Source of the DNA: Chloroflexota bacterium
GTDB taxonomy: Bacteria; Chloroflexota; Limnocylindria; P2-11E
Length of the DNA: 49,164 nucleotides
Direction: 5' to 3'
Assembly (NCBI GenBank): GCA_021787445.1
Contig: JAJYLV010000008.1
Location: forward strand, 1-49,164
In this document: positions 113 to 10,405 of the stretch, in pieces
Numbering within the stretch: the stretch's first letter is position 1
Layout: each line of letters starts with the position of its first letter
Position numbers and translations under genes: made by a program
The notes under the pieces: generated by a model
The model's input: only the letters and a program-made list of their open reading frames with translations
The model's database searches: none
What the model was told of the DNA's origin: nothing

Positions 113-328
113 ATGTACTCCTGTCCACGCTGTCACCGCGTCACAAGCGCCATGAGCCTGGTCCGTCACTGCCGCGGCCTCACTGAGTTCAGCCCCGAGC
201 AGATGTGCGCCACCTGTCTCGGGGAGCTCCGCGCCGAGGAGGCCGGTACGCCGACCCTCGAGACCGCCTGGGGTGTGGCGGTCCTCCACGAAGGGGAAGC
301 CGCCGAGCCCGTGGCGCTCGCGGCATGA
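113..328 (+). CDS. Small zinc-ribbon-like protein, coupled to RepA
   Basis: A 71-residue protein with a CxxC pair at residues 4-7, further Cys around residue 20 and a second CxxC near residues 32-35, as in a small zinc ribbon. I chose ATG at 113 over the longer frame from 68 because GGAG at 102-105 sits 7 nt before it. The stop (326-328) overlaps the RepA start in the sequence ATGA at 325-328, so the two proteins are probably made together. It may be a replication accessory or regulator; the family is not recognised. Confidence 0.6.
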   Translation: MYSCPRCHRVTSAMSLVRHCRGLTEFSPEQMCATCLGELRAEEAGTPTLETAWGVAVLHEGEAAEPVALAA

Positions 329-1656
329 CGTCGCTCCACGCGCTGCCGACCATCAATGAGCAGGATGAGCTCGACGAGATCGCCCTGGCACAGGACTCAG
401 TAGTAGATGCCAAGCCAACGTTCGCGACCGAGCGCGGTGCCTTCTCGGCATCGTGGCCGGCGCCGACCTACGTCCGCATCGACATCGACCGCTTCGATGA
501 CAGACGCGACGAGTTGTCGGCGGAAGTCGTCGTCCGCTCCACGGTCCCCGGCCTTGCGCGTCAGATCGCGCAGCGCAGGCTGCCCCTTCTAGGAACGCGC
601 TCGGTGCCGGACCTAGCGAAGTACCTCGGGGGTAGGACGTCGGGCCGGAAGATCGACTGGTCCGCGCTTCTGGACGACACGTTCACTCGTGCAGTGCAGA
701 CGCACCGCCAGGGCGAGCCGGCGATCCGTCTCGATCAGCGTCAGAAGCTCGTCGACCAGGAACTCTACGCGCTCCCACCCGCAGCGCTGCTCCGCGAGCT
801 GACGATCGTCTACGGAAAGCCGGGTGAAGGAAAAACATGGTGGGGACTCGCGATCGCCTGCGCCCTCCAGACGGGACGGGGCGACATCCTGGGACTGACG
901 CCTGCCCGGTCGATGAACGTTCTCGTTCTCGACTGGGAGGACGACGAGCACGTCAAGGGCAAGCGTGCCGACATGATCGCGCCGCCCGGCGTTGCTCTCA
1001 CCTACCTCGTCTGCCGTCGCGCGATCTGGGACGAGCTTGACCGCATCCTGACCACCATCCGCGAGCGCGAGATCGAGTTCTTGCTGATCGACAGCGTCGG
1101 GATGGCGTGTGGTGGACTTCCGCCGGAGAGCTCAGAGGCCGCACTACGGTTCGGGCTCGCCTATCGCCAGCTCGGGCTCGGTGCCGTAGCCATCGCTCAC
1201 CTGCCGAAGGCGACCCAGGATGACTCGATGCCTTACGGCTCTGTATTCTGGGCCGCCCAGGCCCGGCTGACGTGGCTAATCAAGCGCGAACAGGAGCTCG
1301 GCGACAACGGTTTCACCATCGGTGCCTTCTGCAGGAAGGCCAACAACGACCGTCCGCCGCTGCCGCTGGCGTACGACGTCACCTTCGCGGACAGCCAGGT
1401 GCGGTTCACGCGCCGCGATGTTGGGAGCGTCACGGAGTTCTCGGCACAGCTCCCTGTCCGCTGGCGCATCCAGGAGGCGCTGAAGGAGGGGCCCGGGACT
1501 ATCACTCACATCGCTTCGGAGACCGGGGCGGACAACGACACCGTGAGCAAGACGCTCCGTCGGCACGAGGGGAAATATTTCGTCCGCGTCCCGAACGCCC
1601 AGGGCGTGCAGATGTGGGCCAACCTCCGTCGAGACGATCTTCCTCGTAGCGCCTAG
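325..1656 (+). CDS. RepA-like AAA ATPase/helicase with C-terminal winged helix
   Basis: A 443-residue protein of the RepA/AAA_25 class of RecA-fold hexameric helicases. Walker A is GKPGEGKT at about residues 164-171 and Walker B is LLIDS at about 253-257. A helix-turn-helix or winged-helix domain fills residues 380-436 (from WRIQEALK to MWANL). The N-terminal 160 residues are not recognised. The start at ATG 325 is favoured by the 4-nt overlap with the upstream gene; the longer frame from 205 adds only Arg/Gly-rich shadow sequence. The palindromic sites start about 60 bases after the stop, so the tail domain probably binds them and loads the ATPase at a replication origin. That role is inferred from layout and family. 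A diverged copy of the tail domain lies at 2564-2758. Confidence 0.8.
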   Translation: MTSLHALPTINEQDELDEIALAQDSVVDAKPTFATERGAFSASWPAPTYVRIDIDRFDDRRDELSAEVVVRSTVPGLARQIAQRRLPLLGTRSVPDLAKYLGGRTSGRKIDWSALLDDTFTRAVQTHRQGEPAIRLDQRQKLVDQELYALPPAALLRELTIVYGKPGEGKTWWGLAIACALQTGRGDILGLTPARSMNVLVLDWEDDEHVKGKRADMIAPPGVALTYLVCRRAIWDELDRILTTIREREIEFLLIDSVGMACGGLPPESSEAALRFGLAYRQLGLGAVAIAHLPKATQDDSMPYGSVFWAAQARLTWLIKREQELGDNGFTIGAFCRKANNDRPPLPLAYDVTFADSQVRFTRRDVGSVTEFSAQLPVRWRIQEALKEGPGTITHIASETGADNDTVSKTLRRHEGKYFVRVPNAQGVQMWANLRRDDLPRSA

Positions 1657-1677
1657 CTGGGACCGGACAGTCGGACA

Positions 1678-1850
1678 GGGGACTCTAAAGAGTCCCCCTG
1701 TGTCCGTCCGGTACTCCGGACAAGTGTCCGCGGACACTCCGGACAAGTGTCCGGAGCCCTGATCCCATTTGGCTCAAAGGGGCGGACAGTGTCTTCCCGG
1801 GACGCGCGATCTCCACGACTGTCCGCCGCGCTCTCCGGACAAGTGTCCGG
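1678..1850. promoter_or_regulatory. Palindromic site array 1 (iteron/operator-like)
   Basis: A hairpin with arms GGGGACTCT (1678-1686) and AGAGTCCCC (1689-1697) is followed by three palindromes of the form CCGGACA-AG-TGTCCG. They lie at 1714-1730, 1737-1756 (perfect 9-bp arms, CTCCGGACA and TGTCCGGAG) and 1833-1850. Centres of the first two are 23 bp apart with a lone GGACA half-site between them. More half-sites occur at 1666-1677 and 1782-1787. The pattern fits an initiator-binding origin region or the operators of a winged-helix regulator. The third palindrome falls in the -35 region of the next promoter, so it could repress it. Confidence 0.75.
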
Positions 1851-1871
1851 CCCCCGACGACATCCGGCGAC

Positions 1872-1877
1872 TACCAT
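1872..1877 (+). promoter_or_regulatory. Probable -10 box for a leaderless transcript
   Basis: TACCAT is followed by 8 bases and then GTG at 1886. The identical box and spacing occur at 2922 before GTG 2936. Neither gene has a Shine-Dalgarno sequence, which fits transcription beginning at the start codon. Confidence 0.4.
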
Positions 1878-1885
1878 CCGCCGCG

Positions 1886-2563
1886 GTGAGCCACCTTCGT
1901 GCTCCCATCGCGCTCGCTGTCGTGTTGCTGGTCGGCTACGGCGTCTACGCCACAGCGCGGATCGCCTCCCTGGAATCGCAGGTCGCTGCGTACCGCACGT
2001 ACGCGATACAGCGCGACGCATCACTGGAGTCGGCCACGCAGCGCATCGCATCGCTGGAGTCGCAGCTCGCGTTCACAGTGGTCAGCAAGGACGTTCGTGG
2101 CGTGCCCGGACGGCCGGGATTGTTCGAGGGCTGCGTGAAGTACAGAGCTCTGGGCACTACGGAGGAGTGGTGCGGGCTACCGACCAGTACGCCGCCTCCC
2201 GGGTCGGCGGGAGATGTCACCATGCCGACTTGCTGGACGGATGCGCAACTCGGGGCGCCATTGCCCCAGTCATGCCGGGATACCCCATCGTCACTTCTGC
2301 CCTCGGCGCCGCCAGGTGACGGACAGTCGTCCTCGGCGAGAGGGACCGCCGCGACTATCGCCCCTACGACAGCGACCGGGGTGGCGACGCCTGCTCCGAC
2401 GACCGCGAGCCGGGCCCAATACGTCGATTGCCTTCGCTCCGCGCTCGGCCAGAATGCTGCGCCCTACAACGGGATTGTCATTGGCGGCGTCGTGTACACG
2501 CCGGCCCCGTCAACCCTGAGCCCAAACTGTAGGCGGCTGCTCGAGCCGAGTCAGTCGCCATGA
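1886..2563 (+). CDS. Single-pass membrane protein with coiled coil and Thr/Ser/Pro-rich linker
   Basis: A 225-residue unknown protein. After the leader MSHLRAP comes one membrane segment (about residues 8-25), then a coiled-coil-like stretch with the internal repeat RIASLESQ twice. A mid region carries several Cys, a long Thr/Pro/Ser/Ala-rich linker follows, and the tail has a small Cys pair. The layout resembles an anchored extracytoplasmic stalk protein. I start at GTG 1886, not the upstream ATG at 1769, because everything before 1886 is palindrome-array DNA and because the downstream paralogue of the start region (2936) begins at the same point. It could be a lysis or envelope-interaction protein of the element; there is no direct evidence. 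Confidence 0.6.
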   Translation: MSHLRAPIALAVVLLVGYGVYATARIASLESQVAAYRTYAIQRDASLESATQRIASLESQLAFTVVSKDVRGVPGRPGLFEGCVKYRALGTTEEWCGLPTSTPPPGSAGDVTMPTCWTDAQLGAPLPQSCRDTPSSLLPSAPPGDGQSSSARGTAATIAPTTATGVATPAPTTASRAQYVDCLRSALGQNAAPYNGIVIGGVVYTPAPSTLSPNCRRLLEPSQSP

Positions 2564-2758
2564 CCGTGGCGGATCCAGGAAGTGCTCAAGAACGGACCGC
2601 AGACCGTGACGCACATCGCGGCCGAGACGGACGAGAGCACGGACGCGGTGAACAAGGCGCTCCGCCGCGCCGAGGGCAAGGTCTTCGTCAAGGCGCCGAC
2701 CCCAGAGGGCGTTCTGCGCTGGGCGAACCTCTACCAGGAGAACGCCCAGACCGCCTAG
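2564..2758 (+). pseudogene. Second copy of the RepA winged-helix tail (relic or mini-regulator)
   Basis: Directly after the TGA of the preceding gene the same frame encodes WRIQEVLK..., which aligns with the RepA tail (34 of 55 residues identical by hand alignment) and ends at TAG 2756-2758. There is no ATPase domain in front and no in-frame ATG. The only early start is GTG at 2582, with AGGA only 2 nt before it. It is therefore a left-over fragment of a duplicated repA, or a stand-alone DNA-binding peptide made by re-initiation. The amino-acid pattern is well kept, with conserved hydrophobic positions and no internal stop, which argues for recent duplication or continued selection. Confidence 0.7.
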
Positions 2759-2773
2759 ATGGACACATGGACA

Positions 2774-2852
2774 GGACGGACTAGATAGTCCGTCCGTGTC
2801 TGTCCATCGGGATGGACACCTGTCCAGTGGACATGATGGACAACTGTCCATC
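2774..2852. promoter_or_regulatory. Palindromic site array 2 with altered flanks
   Basis: A hairpin with 10-bp arms GGACGGACTA (2774-2783) and TAGTCCGTCC (2786-2795) is followed by two palindromes: TGGACA-CC-TGTCCA at 2813-2826 and GATGGACA-AC-TGTCCATC at 2835-2852. Centres are 24 bp apart with a lone GGACA half-site (2829-2833) between them, as in array 1. The GGACA/TGTCC core is shared, but the outer bases are AT/TA-type instead of the CCG/CGG-type of array 1. Confidence 0.75.
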
Positions 2853-2921
2853 ACCCGAGTCGCTTACGGGACCACGCGGGCCGTCCTGGGTAAGCCCCCG
2901 CAACAAAGTGGTGCTCGCGCC

Positions 2922-2927
2922 TACCAT
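2922..2927 (+). promoter_or_regulatory. Probable -10 box, copy 2
   Basis: TACCAT, 8 bases before GTG 2936, in the conserved block CTACCATCCG shared with copy 1. The nearest palindrome is about 90 bp upstream, so control may differ from copy 1. Confidence 0.35.
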
Positions 2928-2935
2928 CCGCGGCG

Positions 2936-3145
2936 GTGAGTCACCTTCGTGCTCCCGTGGTCGTTCTGCTGGCCGGTGTGACGGCCTATCTGCTCTTCGG
3001 ACCGCTCCCATCGATGCACATCTCCGCGTTCAACTGCGTGCTCCATGAGAGAGAGGGGTTCCCTTTCTGCTTCGGTGCCGGAGGATCCATCGCTCTCGCC
3101 GCCATGACGCTTACAGCGGCCGCCTGGCTCACCTGGGCGCGCTAG
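2936..3145 (+). CDS. Small two-helix membrane protein
   Basis: A 69-residue protein sharing only the first residues (MSHLRAP) with the 225-residue protein of copy 1. Two hydrophobic segments (about residues 8-23 and 48-66) flank a short loop with two Cys, giving a small hairpin membrane protein. The GTG start is fixed by alignment to copy 1. A holin-like or membrane-sensing role is possible but unsupported. Confidence 0.5.
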   Translation: MSHLRAPVVVLLAGVTAYLLFGPLPSMHISAFNCVLHEREGFPFCFGAGGSIALAAMTLTAAAWLTWAR

Positions 3146-3297: not shown

Positions 3298-4284
3298 TCA
3301 GCCGCGCCGGGAGCTGTACGGGACGTGCAGCATGTTCGCGGCCTTCCGCTTCGTGCCTTCGCCGCGCCGGTCATAGCGGGCGGTCGTCGTCACTGAGGCG
3401 TGACCGGCGAGCTCCTTCACCGTCGACAGATCGGCGCCACTGTCCAGCAGGTCACTGACGAACGACCGCCGTAGGTCGTGCGGACTGAGTGCGCCGATGC
3501 CGGCGCGCGCCGCCCGGCGATGGGCGGCTTCGTAGACGGCCTGAGCGGTCATGCGGCGGGGCTGAATGCGGCCCGCCTTGTCGACGGGCCACAGGAGCGG
3601 TCCGGGACCATCACCGCGGATCGCGCACCAGGCAGCGAGCGCGTCCTTGCCCCCGTTGGCGAGGTACGTGACGCGGTCCTTGCGACCCTTGCCGCGGCGC
3701 ACGGTGACGGAGCCTGTCTCCGGGTCGTAGCCGGAGCGCTCGAGCGCGACGGCCTCTGAGCGTCGCAGGCCGGCGCCGTAGAGGAGCGCGAGGAGCGCCG
3801 CGTCCCGCGGACCGCTCGCGCGGTCATCCTCGGCGCAGACAGCGAACAGAGCGCGGAGCTCGCCGGAGGAGAGGGCCCGGCCCGCCGGGAGGGTCGACCC
3901 GCTGACGTTCGGCAGGTCCGACGCGCGTCGGTAGGTCTCCGCGTCCATCGCTCCCAGGCGCCAGGCTTCTCGCAGGACCCCTCGCAGGGCCGCGAGATGC
4001 TTGTTCACCGTCGCGGGGGCGTAGCGCTCGGCCAGGGCGGTACGGACGGCCGTCGTGTGCTGGTAGCGGAGCGCGGACCAGTCGAGGCCGAGCGCGTCGG
4101 ATCGGCCATCGCTCAGGATGCTCGCGATGGTGTCGAGGGCGCGGCGCATGGTCGGGCGCGAGCCGACGTCCAGGCGCGCGAGGTACACGGCCGCGGGATG
4201 CCGGTCCAGGCTTACGAGAACCGCCATTCTCATAGGCGAAGTCGGGCTCGGATCGGCCACCGCGAGCGCGGTCTGATCGGTCAT
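3298..4284 (-). CDS. Tyrosine recombinase (XerC/D-like integrase)
   Basis: A 328-residue phage-integrase-family enzyme that cuts and rejoins DNA through a phosphotyrosine. An N-terminal SAM-like core-binding domain covers roughly residues 20-115. The catalytic domain carries Arg174 (GAGLRRSE), Lys202 (GKGRKDR), His269 and Arg272 (PHDLRRSF), His295 (LAGHASV) and the nucleophile Tyr304 (TARYDRR), so all catalytic residues are present. GGAGG lies 9 nt before the ATG. It is the last gene of a three-gene minus-strand block. It may integrate the element or resolve its multimers; the serine recombinase at the tRNA junction competes for the integration role. Confidence 0.9.
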   Translation of the reverse strand: MTDQTALAVADPSPTSPMRMAVLVSLDRHPAAVYLARLDVGSRPTMRRALDTIASILSDGRSDALGLDWSALRYQHTTAVRTALAERYAPATVNKHLAALRGVLREAWRLGAMDAETYRRASDLPNVSGSTLPAGRALSSGELRALFAVCAEDDRASGPRDAALLALLYGAGLRRSEAVALERSGYDPETGSVTVRRGKGRKDRVTYLANGGKDALAAWCAIRGDGPGPLLWPVDKAGRIQPRRMTAQAVYEAAHRRAARAGIGALSPHDLRRSFVSDLLDSGADLSTVKELAGHASVTTTARYDRRGEGTKRKAANMLHVPYSSRRG

Positions 4285-5544: not shown

Positions 5545-8412
5545 ATGGCGAACATCGCTGGCCCCACCGGCGGCACCTACCAGCCGCCCTCGCTTCCCGA
5601 CATCGCGAACGTTCCGCTGGGTCGTGTGCCCAGGCTCGTCTCTTCGGGCACTACCACTCCCGCGCCGAGCTCCGGTCCGTCCCTTTCCGACCTTCTCGGC
5701 GGCGTAGGCAGCGCGCTCGGGAATGCGTGGATGACCGCGACGGATCCCGTCACCCGGACGAACGCGATCGCCGCGGCGCAGAGGGGCGAACACCAGCTCA
5801 CCCCCTTCGGGCCGTGGGACATCCTCGGTGGAGCGAACGAGGCCCTGACGCCCCTGCTTCAGCCGATACAGCGTCCGGGCGACGTCATGCCCGAGACGCC
5901 TCCGATCTTCCCCGGTGCTCCTCTCGCCGCAGCGACGGACCTGGCGTCGGAGAGCCTGGGACCAGCGCTCGGTCAGGCGGGACGAGCCATCGGCACCTTC
6001 GCGGAGTCTCCCGCAGTGCGTCGCTTCGCGACCGAGGCCGCGGGGGAGGGCGAGGTCGGCCTGGGTATCCCGGGTGCGGCCCAGAGGGCGGCCCGCTACG
6101 TCGTGAACCACGGCAAGACCGTTCACACGATCATGGACACCCAGACCGGAAAGATCCTGCCCCTCGCGTTCAAGGACGCGGACAGGGCCGAGCAGGTCGC
6201 CGCGGCGAGGAACGCCGCGTTGCGCGCTGTTCCCAGCACCGCAGATGCGGCGAAGACGAACCTCGAGCGCATGGTCGCGTCGGGCCGGAACTTCACCCGT
6301 GTCCCTCCCGGGGAGGCCGCCGCATCCGAGGCCGCGAACCCGTCGGTGGTCCGGGGTGGTCTCCCGACGCCCCAGGAGGCGGCGGCGCAGGAAGCGCAGA
6401 CCCGCGCCGCGAGCGAGGCCGCGCGCAGGGCTCCGAAGCCCGGTGGCTTCGCCGCTCCGGGCACGACCTTCGCGGGCGTGTCCCCGCGTGATCTGACGAA
6501 GACCATCCAGGCGACCACGCCCTATCGCAGCATCAAGGAGTTCGGCGCTGCCGTCCGCAGCGGAGAGGCCGCGAAGAACGGCGCGCCCCAGGGGCTCATC
6601 GATGTCTTCGAGCGTGGCGAGGCCGACATGGCGCGCCGGGCGGCTGAAGACGCGATGCGCTCGCGCGGTGCGAGCCAAGAACTGATCGACCGCACGATGG
6701 GCCGTGCGCCGCGAACGGCTCCCGCTGCCGCGTTCGAGCGCGAGGCCGCCGCGGCGCAGGAGGCGGTGCGTCAGCGGCTCAACGCACTGACATCAACGAC
6801 GGAGACGACGCGCCCGGTCCCAACACTGTCGGGTCCCATCGCCTCGGTCGATTCGGAGCGAGCCGGCCTCGAGGACCTGATCCGTCGCGAGGGCCAGCGG
6901 CAAGGTCTGTCCGACGACGAGATCCGCAAGGCGATCGCCCAGATGGGCGGCGGCGGTGGGCGACGTCCGCCTGCTCCTCCTGCCGGCGGACCGTCGCTGC
7001 CGCGCGGTCCCGCAGAGACGGTCCAGGCCGCGAAGCTGCGTGCCTTCCGTACGCTGTTCCAGACCTTCGTCTACTCGAACATGCTCGGCCCCGGTGTCGC
7101 CGGCCTCAAGGCCGGAAGCGACATGGGGAAGATGATCCTCGGCACCGTACAGATACCGCTCGCGCGCCTGCTCACTCCGGGCGCAGAGGCTGGGAGTGCG
7201 GCCACACGCGAGGCCGTGCTGTGGCGCGGCTTCATACGGGGCGTGACCCAGGATGCAATGCGAGGCTTCGCCACCAACTCGTATCAATTCGCCGACACCA
7301 CTCCCGGGAACTTCACTCGTCTGATGCGAGGTGAGGCGGGCAAGGGCTGGGCCCGTGCGGCTGGCGCCGTCAACGTCGCGTCCGTGTTCCGCGTCATGCC
7401 TCGCCTCTTCTCGGGCGTCACCGCCGCCTTCCTTCACGGCTGGCACGATCTGTCTCTCTACGACCAGGCTGTCCAGGCGGCGAGGGGTCTGAGGGGTGCG
7501 GAGCGCGATCGGTTCATCTCGGACTTTCAGCGCAACGTCACCCCGGAGGTCGAGAAGACCGCGCACGACTTCGCTATGCGTCAGACCTGGCTCAACGGCA
7601 ACGCGATGGTCCGGATGCTCGACACCTTCCGCGATCCAGACCGGATGATGCGGAACGGCGTTCCCAAGTCGATCGCCGAGCCCGCGAGCCTGGTCAGTTG
7701 GACCATGCTCCCGTTCGCCAAGGTCGTCTCGAACCTGCTACGGGAAGGATCCGAGTTCGTACCCGGCGTCAACCTTCCCGGCCTGCTGGACCGCAGCGTT
7801 CCGGCCGTGGAGCAGGGCACCCGGCGGGCGAACGCTCTCATCGGTGCGGGCCTGATGCTCTGGGCCAGCGGCAAGGCCACCAGCGGCGAGATCACCGGCG
7901 ACGGACCGTCGAACGTCCACGCTCGCATCGCGCTCATGAACATGGGCTGGAAGCCCAACAGCATCCGTCTCGGCGGCAGGTGGTACGAGACGCGCCTCTT
8001 CGGTCCTGTCGCGCCGCTGCTGAACATGGTGGGCAACTACCACGACGAGATGCAGTACGACACGAAGCCCATGGACCGCTCGAAGCTCGAGACCCGCGGG
8101 ACCGCCGTCGCCCAGGCGGCGCTGCGCGCGGCCGTCGACGAGCTCGGCTACGCGCAGGACGTCAGCGAGTTCATGAACGCCGTACAGGGATCCCCGGCGG
8201 CACTCGAGCGCTACCTCAACTACCAGACCCAGGGCCTCGAACCCCTCAGCGGCATCGGGCGCAACATCGCCTCGGCCAGCGAGCCGCGCACTCCGATGAA
8301 GATCCAGAGCGGCCGCGTTGTCGGCGGCGTGCGCCGTCCATACACGGGGCCGACCGTCTTCCTGCCATTCCTCGGCGAGCGCGGTCCAGCTAATCCCCGC
8401 TACCCCTTCTGA
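5545..8412 (+). CDS. Large phage-type polyvalent/internal virion-like protein
   Basis: A 955-residue protein, by far the largest of the element. The N-terminal third is Pro/Ala-rich and low in predicted structure, with a folded patch at about residues 180-225. The middle (about 280-480) is Ala/Glu/Arg-rich and helical. The C-terminal half contains a conserved-looking block: a hydrophobic helix near residues 765-785, then GDGPSN and GWKPNSIRLGG (about 801-811) and RLFGPVAPLLNMVGN. The GWxPxSIxxGGxWY pattern recurs in large phage proteins of the LPD38-like polyvalent or internal-virion class, from memory only. AAGGAG lies close before the ATG. It may be an injected or membrane-interacting protein. 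Confidence 0.55.
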   Translation: MANIAGPTGGTYQPPSLPDIANVPLGRVPRLVSSGTTTPAPSSGPSLSDLLGGVGSALGNAWMTATDPVTRTNAIAAAQRGEHQLTPFGPWDILGGANEALTPLLQPIQRPGDVMPETPPIFPGAPLAAATDLASESLGPALGQAGRAIGTFAESPAVRRFATEAAGEGEVGLGIPGAAQRAARYVVNHGKTVHTIMDTQTGKILPLAFKDADRAEQVAAARNAALRAVPSTADAAKTNLERMVASGRNFTRVPPGEAAASEAANPSVVRGGLPTPQEAAAQEAQTRAASEAARRAPKPGGFAAPGTTFAGVSPRDLTKTIQATTPYRSIKEFGAAVRSGEAAKNGAPQGLIDVFERGEADMARRAAEDAMRSRGASQELIDRTMGRAPRTAPAAAFEREAAAAQEAVRQRLNALTSTTETTRPVPTLSGPIASVDSERAGLEDLIRREGQRQGLSDDEIRKAIAQMGGGGGRRPPAPPAGGPSLPRGPAETVQAAKLRAFRTLFQTFVYSNMLGPGVAGLKAGSDMGKMILGTVQIPLARLLTPGAEAGSAATREAVLWRGFIRGVTQDAMRGFATNSYQFADTTPGNFTRLMRGEAGKGWARAAGAVNVASVFRVMPRLFSGVTAAFLHGWHDLSLYDQAVQAARGLRGAERDRFISDFQRNVTPEVEKTAHDFAMRQTWLNGNAMVRMLDTFRDPDRMMRNGVPKSIAEPASLVSWTMLPFAKVVSNLLREGSEFVPGVNLPGLLDRSVPAVEQGTRRANALIGAGLMLWASGKATSGEITGDGPSNVHARIALMNMGWKPNSIRLGGRWYETRLFGPVAPLLNMVGNYHDEMQYDTKPMDRSKLETRGTAVAQAALRAAVDELGYAQDVSEFMNAVQGSPAALERYLNYQTQGLEPLSGIGRNIASASEPRTPMKIQSGRVVGGVRRPYTGPTVFLPFLGERGPANPRYPF

Positions 8413-8743: not shown

Positions 8744-8925
8744 GCGGGAGTATCGGCGTGCTCCGCGCGATCGGGGGCCGGATAGAGGACCTGGAAGAGG
8801 ACCCGAGGGAGCGCGGCTACCGGATCCTCGCCAAGATGTGCCGCGAGGCCGCCGAGGCGATCAGTAGACTCCCCACCGCCGAGAGGGCGCGGTCACTGGG
8901 CGTGGAGGAACGGGATGCGGCCTGA
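8740..8925 (+). CDS. Small helical protein, coupled
   Basis: A 61-residue charged protein with two predicted helices (about residues 5-20 and 24-48). Start at GTG 8740, overlapping the preceding TGA; the stop at 8925 overlaps the serine recombinase start by 11 nt. It is probably translated with its neighbours. It could be a recombinase accessory, since recombination directionality factors are often small and nearby, but no motif shows this. Confidence 0.5.
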   Translation: MSGSIGVLRAIGGRIEDLEEDPRERGYRILAKMCREAAEAISRLPTAERARSLGVEERDAA

Positions 8926-10405
8926 CGCTCGTGCGTGGTTGAGCGGCCGGCGGGCTCGCGGCTATCTCCGCGTGTCGACGAAGCGACAAGCCGACACATA
9001 TGGCCCAGCCGCCCAGCGTCACGATGAGGAAGAGTCCGCCTCGGCCTACGGCACGGCGCCCATGTCGCTGTTCTACGAGGATCACGTCACCGGGACGAAC
9101 GCTCTTATCCGTTCGGACTTCCAGCGGATGGTCGCGGATGCCCGAACGCGACAGTTCGATGTGCTGCTCGTCGCGCGCGTCGACCGCTTCGCCCGCAACG
9201 AACGCGACTCCTGGAACTACCTGCACGCGCTCATCGAGGCCGGCGTCGCTGTTCACTTCTGCGAGGAAGACGTCCTGGTCCCGAACGACGACGACTGGCA
9301 GGACCGGATCGGCGAGTCGATCAACAGCGCTGCGGCGTACTCACGCCGACTGTCGCGGAACGTCCGCAAGGGGCTCGAGCGCAAGTGGGCCTCGGGCGGA
9401 CACATCGGGCCGGTCCCGTGGGGCTACCGCCGCACCGCCGACAAGCGCCTCATCGAGCCCGACCCCGAGACGGCGCCGCAGCGTGCGCTGTGCTTCGAGC
9501 TCTACTCGACCGGCCGCTACACCTATGCGACGCTCGCGGCGGAGCTGAACGGGCGCGGCGTCCGCATTCTCTCCAAAGGCGTGCTCCGCCCATTCACGAA
9601 GTTCACGGTCAAGGATGTGCTCGATAACCCCGTGGTCATCGGGACCATCGGCGAGCGCGAGCAGCGTCAGAACGCCGTTGCGCCCATCGTGACGATGGAC
9701 ACGTGGTGGAGGGTCCGCGAGATCGTCGCCCACCGCTACGGCGCCGACGAGAAGGTGACGCAGCGTCGCCACCGATACCTGTTCGCCTCCGTCGCGCGAT
9801 GCGCTGAGTGCGGCGAGCGGTTCTGGGGCCGCCTTAGCCATCAGCGGAGCCAGCGCCCCTACCGGCAGCTCTACCACGCCCCGCGTGGGTGCCGTCAGGG
9901 CTCACGGAACGAGGAGCGACTGACGACGCAGATCGGCGCGTGGCTGGCGACGTGGAGCCTCCCGGCGGACGCACGAGTCCGAATCGTTCAGTACCTCAAC
10001 GCTCCCCACCCAATCGACACCGGGAGGGCGGTGCGGCGTCAGCAGATCGAGGCCGAGATGGAGCGCGTCCGCAACCTCTACCGCTGGGGCGATCTTGCCG
10101 AGGACGAGTACCTGGGCGACCGCAGGCGGCTCGCGCGGGCGCTCGACGCACTCGGAACCGACCAGCCGGCAAAAGAGCCGAGCGAGGACGCGCTACGCCT
10201 TGCGACCACCATCGGCCGTGCCTGGGAGCACGTCAGCGACGACACTCGCCGCGAGTTCATCGAGGAGTGGGTCGCCGAGCTCCGCATCCGCAAGGACGGC
10301 GGGGTCGACGTCCTGCCGCGCGAGCCGTACCGGGAGATCGTCTACGCCTCGCAGATGGGCACCGTGGGCTGTGCTGGGCTCGAACCAGCGACCTTGCGGA
10401 TGTGA
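8915..10405 (+). CDS. Large serine recombinase (serine integrase)
   Basis: A 496-residue resolvase/invertase-family integrase. The catalytic Ser21 lies in YLRVSTKRQ; the resolvase domain runs to about residue 150 with the RVDRFARN motif; a Recombinase domain follows at about 165-270. A zinc-ribbon-like region (CAEC, then GCRQG) is at about 295-335, with a coiled-coil stretch at about 370-420. The last 13 residues (VGCAGLEPATLRM) are read from the antisense strand of tRNA-Val, and the stop lies in the tRNA anticodon-arm region. The gene therefore abuts its likely attachment site, which makes it the best candidate for the integrase of the element. Confidence 0.88.
   Translation: MRPDARAWLSGRRARGYLRVSTKRQADTYGPAAQRHDEEESASAYGTAPMSLFYEDHVTGTNALIRSDFQRMVADARTRQFDVLLVARVDRFARNERDSWNYLHALIEAGVAVHFCEEDVLVPNDDDWQDRIGESINSAAAYSRRLSRNVRKGLERKWASGGHIGPVPWGYRRTADKRLIEPDPETAPQRALCFELYSTGRYTYATLAAELNGRGVRILSKGVLRPFTKFTVKDVLDNPVVIGTIGEREQRQNAVAPIVTMDTWWRVREIVAHRYGADEKVTQRRHRYLFASVARCAECGERFWGRLSHQRSQRPYRQLYHAPRGCRQGSRNEERLTTQIGAWLATWSLPADARVRIVQYLNAPHPIDTGRAVRRQQIEAEMERVRNLYRWGDLAEDEYLGDRRRLARALDALGTDQPAKEPSEDALRLATTIGRAWEHVSDDTRREFIEEWVAELRIRKDGGVDVLPREPYREIVYASQMGTVGCAGLEPATLRM
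10365..10405. other. Predicted attachment site (element right end in tRNA-Val)
   Basis: The 3' half of tRNA-Val is shared between the host tRNA and the end of the recombinase gene. The crossover most likely lies in this segment or just left of it. The partner site would be a second copy of the tRNA 3' end at the unseen left border. Confidence 0.55.

Follow-up and report, generated by a model that had tools for sequence, protein, structure and literature searches.

In an integrated phage-like element of a Chloroflexota bacterium, the DNA behind a replication gene is present in two homologous versions, each made up of the coding sequence for a winged-helix tail, a hairpin, an array of GGACA words, and a start-site box, and the base preceding GGACA differs between them at each of the eight words that they share. 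We posit that the array is an origin of replication read by the winged-helix tail and that the second copy was left by recombination with a sister element, a reading that we consider on balance probable from sequence comparison, structural models, and analogy to characterized replicons.

The element fills the left 10.4 kb of the window, the 49,164-nt stretch that we analyzed, which is a whole contig of a draft genome (185 contigs). Its far end lies beyond the contig, which begins at base 1, so that the left remainder of the element is missing from the sequence. Present are repA (325..1656, plus strand), two hydrophobic ORFs, a tyrosine integrase (3298-4284, minus strand), just to its right a 955-aa ORF (5545-8412) whose match to an internal-virion-protein PHROG (E 4.5e-17) suggests that the element is a prophage, and a large serine recombinase (8915-10405) whose gene ends inside a tRNA-Val. 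One element thus houses two integrase types, tyrosine and large serine. A genome search for attL, in the form of a second copy of the tRNA-Val end, did not find it, and the tRNA was the only match in an Rfam search. Upstream, a small plus-strand ORF with zinc-ribbon-like CPRC/CATC motifs (113..328), the coding part of which has no Pfam or PHROG match, overlaps the repA start with its stop codon (ATGA).

RepA is a putative initiator/helicase that joins a RecA-fold ATPase to a C-terminal winged helix. Its core matches Pfam AAA_25 (PF13481; E 5.7e-9) above the curated cut-off (36.3 versus 27 bits), and Foldseek returns structural matches to RecA, KaiC, and DnaB. The tail (1453..1653, plus strand) models as a winged helix: poor in a full-length RepA model built from five sequences, it is better when modeled alone, giving an H-H-H-b-b-H order in AlphaFold (pLDDT 78), and the best Foldseek matches of this model to the PDB are mostly MarR, ArsR, and Zalpha winged helices, at modest E values (best, 7e-3).

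The preliminary description of this DNA had noted the winged-helix tail, a hairpin, GGACA palindromes with a half-site, a TACCAT box, and a GTG start encoding MSHLRAP twice in the same order, and alignment of 1462-1910 with 2567-2960 bears this out with two significant blastn matches. One covers 175 nt of the tails at 68% identity (E 3e-13); in the other, the boxes spanning TACCAT, GTG, and MSHLRAP agree at 37 of 40 positions (93%; E 9e-13). At the protein level, the tails share 62% of 55 ungapped aligned residues, and a genome search with the RepA tail gives a second match at 2549-2743 (E 3e-18). Beyond the box, similarity is lost (30% across the 60 nt that follow), so the proteins encoded by orfA and orfB, the genes that start in the two boxes, have only their first seven residues in common. 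As had also been described, the second winged helix comes without an ATPase domain: by genome search, blastn, and comparison with copy 1, 2567..2758 (plus strand) codes for an orphan tail alone. This second tail, tail2, follows immediately on the TGA (2561-2563) that ends the ORF at 1886-2563, lacks a start codon at its homologous beginning (GTG 2582 is a possible one), and has a reading frame open over 64 codons. Synonymous divergence between the two tails is about 1.1 substitutions per site, and their pN/pS is 0.42 (95%, 0.26-0.66), which implies that each has been evolving as a protein through most of their separate history.

The arrays are partitioned by a single letter. Array 1 (1664..1849) contains 12 CGGACA words and no TGGACA, and array 2 (2760..2850) contains 8 TGGACA words and no CGGACA. 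The first eight GGACA words have the same order and orientation in both (++-+-++-), with offsets of 0, 8, 36, 53, 60, 67, 76, and 83 in array 1 and 0, 8, 40, 53, 60, 68, 77, and 84 in array 2, and all eight pairs show the same C-to-T change before GGACA; four further words, at 1784, 1820, 1837, and 1844, are present in copy 1 and absent from copy 2. The palindrome GGACANNTGTCC occurs five times in the 49 kb, with 0.06 expected, and every occurrence falls within the arrays (1718, 1741, and 1837; 2814 and 2838), with half-sites at 1732 and 2829. Copy numbers of 12 and 8 for a short word near a rep gene are in keeping with an iteron replicon. At the head of each array is a plus-strand hairpin with inverted words at its base, CGGACA in hairpin 1 (1664..1712; apex GGGGACTC-TAAA-GAGTCCCC; DNA fold z -4.7) and TGGACA in hairpin 2 (2760..2808; z -7.0). 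A scan for rho-independent terminators at the hairpins found none, and reading of the sequence identified no AT-rich melting region between or beside the arrays. Elsewhere in the Chloroflexota, loci of one family (f21: L102, L103, L104, L105, L107, L108, and L109) carry pairs of GGACANNTGTCC about 19-24 bp apart, which flank AT-rich or TACAAT-like sequence and look like chromosomal operators.

How did one element come to hold both versions? The shared order of parts is what a simple tandem duplication of the tail-array-box-ORF segment inside one element, followed by divergence, would leave, and the segment had been proposed to have duplicated as a unit. This proposal is doubtful, and we rate it as very unlikely: synonymous divergence is high (about 1.1) yet tail2 is under purifying selection, both arrays have unbroken but different words that changed at all eight positions together, and the proteins encoded downstream have nothing in common past residue seven. 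Because a motor-less tail confined to one genome should decay without selection, and tail2 did not, import from a sister element fits better. Under our preferred reading, two sister elements would have crossed over at the 3' end of rep, and a block of rep, origin 1, and orfA would have replaced the old rep body, leaving from the old element the rep 3' end (tail2), origin 2, and orfB. A single recombination event would then account for the undrifted tail2, the unbroken words, and a specificity letter that differs at every word. Also in its favor, the other loci searched hold no doubled cassette. Against it, the box is far more conserved than the tail, a difference that simple divergence of the blocks as wholes would explain only with an extra constraint, and no sister element with TGGACA only was found. 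Chimeric assembly of two related phages is a concern raised by the 185-contig draft, but the exact runs shared by the copies (15 bases in the box) are shorter than an ordinary assembly join would require, and the junction has no near-identical repeat, making an artifact exceedingly improbable.

The suggestion that the segment is a replication-control cassette gains support from relatives of RepA, since the array lies right behind the rep gene in every close relative tested. About twenty relatives, gathered by profile search of class, phylum, and viral contigs, share an AAA_25 RecA-fold ATPase core and a C-terminal domain; L058, which has an internal stop, was left out. Behind the stop codon of each of 20 relatives lies an array of a private short word: CGAGAC, GCGACA, CCGACA, CGGGAC, GCACGC, GACGCA (15 copies), ACTTAC/AACTTA, ATTAGC, ACCCCA, CGCAAC, and others. 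Together with both window copies, these make 22 arrays, from relatives chosen partly after inspection of the downstream sequence. Each of the 22, located no more than 200 nt from the stop codon, beats dinucleotide shuffles at p<0.05, and 19 do so at p<0.01. At least five word copies are found in 18 of the 22, a count reached by 4% of 178 control stretches drawn from these loci. Distant AAA_25 matches mostly do without: no convincing array was seen in L038-L042, L045, L047, L049, L059, L060, L062, or L064-L066, and one was present in L067, which marks the array as a property of the RepA family and not of AAA_25 proteins in general. Proteins with more similar tails also have more similar arrays (Mantel r 0.51 at k=6, p 0.0002), even after removal of ATPase-core similarity (partial Mantel r 0.37, p 0.0002, a test that can overstate significance). 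Each lineage would appear to have its own word, read by its own tail.

Other features of the family are more variable. A conserved long hairpin was considered and dropped, as stem lengths beat shuffles in only 6 of the 22 arrays, though both window hairpins are stable. The densest array in the family, 14-15 GACGCA words behind the rep gene with many arranged as TGACGCATGCGTC palindromes, is found in L052 and L075. At their N-termini, L011 (934-2385) has a DnaB-N domain (Pfam, E 9e-32), and L013 (1501-3552) and L014 (997-2433) have weak matches, below the Pfam cut-off, to a LigD-type primase-polymerase and to Toprim, respectively, as if priming and helicase-accessory domains were exchanged within the RepA family. 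Named phage and plasmid collections contain no RepA relatives at E 1e-5, and neither a single-sequence scan nor an A5 scan of viral contigs returned any.

The palindromes could instead be operators through which each array regulates the gene behind it from a promoter at the TACCAT box. The regulator would be the RepA tail or a host repressor, and there would be no origin at all. Both arrays are indeed followed by a -10-like TACCAT and a near-leaderless GTG, and GGACANNTGTCC pairs flank a -10-like TACAAT in some other Chloroflexota genomes (for instance L102, L107, and L108), so the palindrome can be an operator elsewhere. However, in all close relatives tested the array stays behind the rep gene whatever gene follows, including recombinases in the L012 and L051 loci; the 8-12 copies in mixed orientation with half-sites are iteron-like; and the word changes with the rep tail. 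We therefore think that transcription cassettes without an origin are an improbable explanation. The box itself is the most conserved part of the two copies. Box 1 (1867..1906, plus strand) consists of TACCAT, 8 nt, the GTG start at 1886, and 21 conserved coding bases; box 2 (2917..2956, plus strand) has its GTG at 2936. Searches of 177 class genomes with up to 3 mismatches and of viral contigs for exact matches did not find the box. A promoter with a start-codon operator, serving orfA and orfB, would explain the constraint on it. An inverted repeat runs across the GTG start in both copies (1885-1895 and 2935-2945; GGTGAGTCACC in copy 2) and may be an operator or a leader structure. Of the two plus-strand genes, orfA (1886..2563) encodes a coiled-coil-like protein with an N-terminal hydrophobic segment and no significant family match, and orfB (2936..3145) encodes a hydrophobic protein of 69 aa, holin-like in size, with no family match.

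The second copy might also be active. In this scenario, tail2 would be expressed as a small, free-standing winged-helix protein, with translation either starting at GTG 2582 or reading through the orfA stop, and would bind array 2, where it controls a second origin or competes with incoming TGGACA relatives. The frame open over 64 codons, the pN/pS of 0.42, and the intact words and conserved spacing of array 2 are all in its favor, and precedents are at hand: the ICP1 protein Odn is a free origin-binding domain with a biological role (PMC8263062), and ectopic origin copies arrest lambda (PMC4488673). Yet tail2 has neither a good start codon nor a ribosome site, initiation at GTG 2582 would shorten helix 1, the ATG that overlaps the orfA stop (2560) is out of frame with tail2, and no second case of the doubled cassette was seen among the relatives and other loci searched. 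Active dual specificity is thus unlikely, if the least so of the alternatives, and the specific version in which two origins of different word specificity both work and the tail2 protein controls or blocks TGGACA-type origins, its own or those of competitors, is distinctly unlikely; if true, the region would be a device for replication-level immunity or switching.

The most telling independent hint that the array is an origin comes from unrelated proteins. Among 2.9 million viral contigs, the dense full-half-full GGACA array has only two matches (L093:9709-9744 and L094:6492-6527), both inside Phage_rep_org_N replisome-organiser genes (E 1e-33). In phages TP901-1 and Tuc2009, the ori consists of repeats within the replisome-organiser gene, to which the encoded protein binds (PMC8965321); the L093 and L094 arrays are thus likely intragenic origins that use the same word as the unrelated RepA, and on this ground we take the window array as an origin and the tail as its reader.

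In the model that we favor, RepA would serve the integrated element as replication initiator, a RecA-fold ATPase of the helicase type that uses its C-terminal winged helix to bind the short words in the array directly behind its own gene. The origin region would exist in two allelic versions, one pairing repA and its tail with CGGACA words and the other a motor-less tail2 with TGGACA words. Array 1 would be the site where RepA initiates replication, and array 2 a passenger or a weak site. The private word and the dedicated tail of each relative offer ready protein-word pairs for learning how winged helices choose DNA. The window holds a natural pair, two homologous putative origins in which all eight shared words differ at the same base and each of which lies beside its own tail, so that two small proteins and two DNA fragments would suffice for a direct test of how an initiator changes specificity.

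The claim that no described element has this layout stands for the doubled cassette. It fails for the single cassette, the layout of which resembles that of SaPI/PICI satellites. Their iteron array/origin lies immediately 3' of rep (PMC6092414), as does the window array, and the C-terminal domain of SaPI Rep reads iterons just downstream of its gene (PMC7581432), the role that the winged-helix model and the tail-array covariation indirectly suggest for the RepA tail. A comparable array-behind-rep layout, with a RecA-fold motor, recurs in a family across Chloroflexota elements. The motors differ, DUF927-related or D5_N/Primase_Cterm in SaPI Rep versus RecA-fold AAA_25 (Pfam) in RepA, which places RepA outside the SaPI families. 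In SaPIs, two iteron sets flank an AT-rich region, whereas the two window arrays have different words and orfA between them, with no AT-rich stretch identified, and RepA relatives have one array. PICI satellites lack virion genes of their own and are induced by a helper phage; the element, its left part missing, has the virion-protein match at 5545-8412 (E 4.5e-17), and some RepA-family elements carry terminase and virion-protein genes. In its RecA-fold core of the hexameric-helicase type, RepA is more like RSF1010 RepA and lactococcal phage GP46 (PMC8965321), but in RSF1010 a separate RepC melts oriV, while here the ATPase has its own winged helix and the array lies behind its gene. Replisome organisers of the Phage_rep_org_N type (TP901-1, Tuc2009) likewise pair an initiator with an adjacent repeat array, twice with the full-half-full GGACA arrangement, but they are unrelated proteins that have no ATPase and keep the array inside the gene. 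For the recombination that we propose, the closest parallels are PLE satellites, in which replicon swapping exchanges the DNA-binding domain of the initiator and the origin as a module, and ICP1 Odn, an origin-binding domain detached from its initiator and usable against relatives (PMC8263062); these domains are of the RepA_N type, and Odn has a nuclease where tail2 has nothing. In its mode of action, the single cassette would resemble replicons of a familiar kind, and what is new is the motor family, the private words across relatives, and the natural specificity pair.
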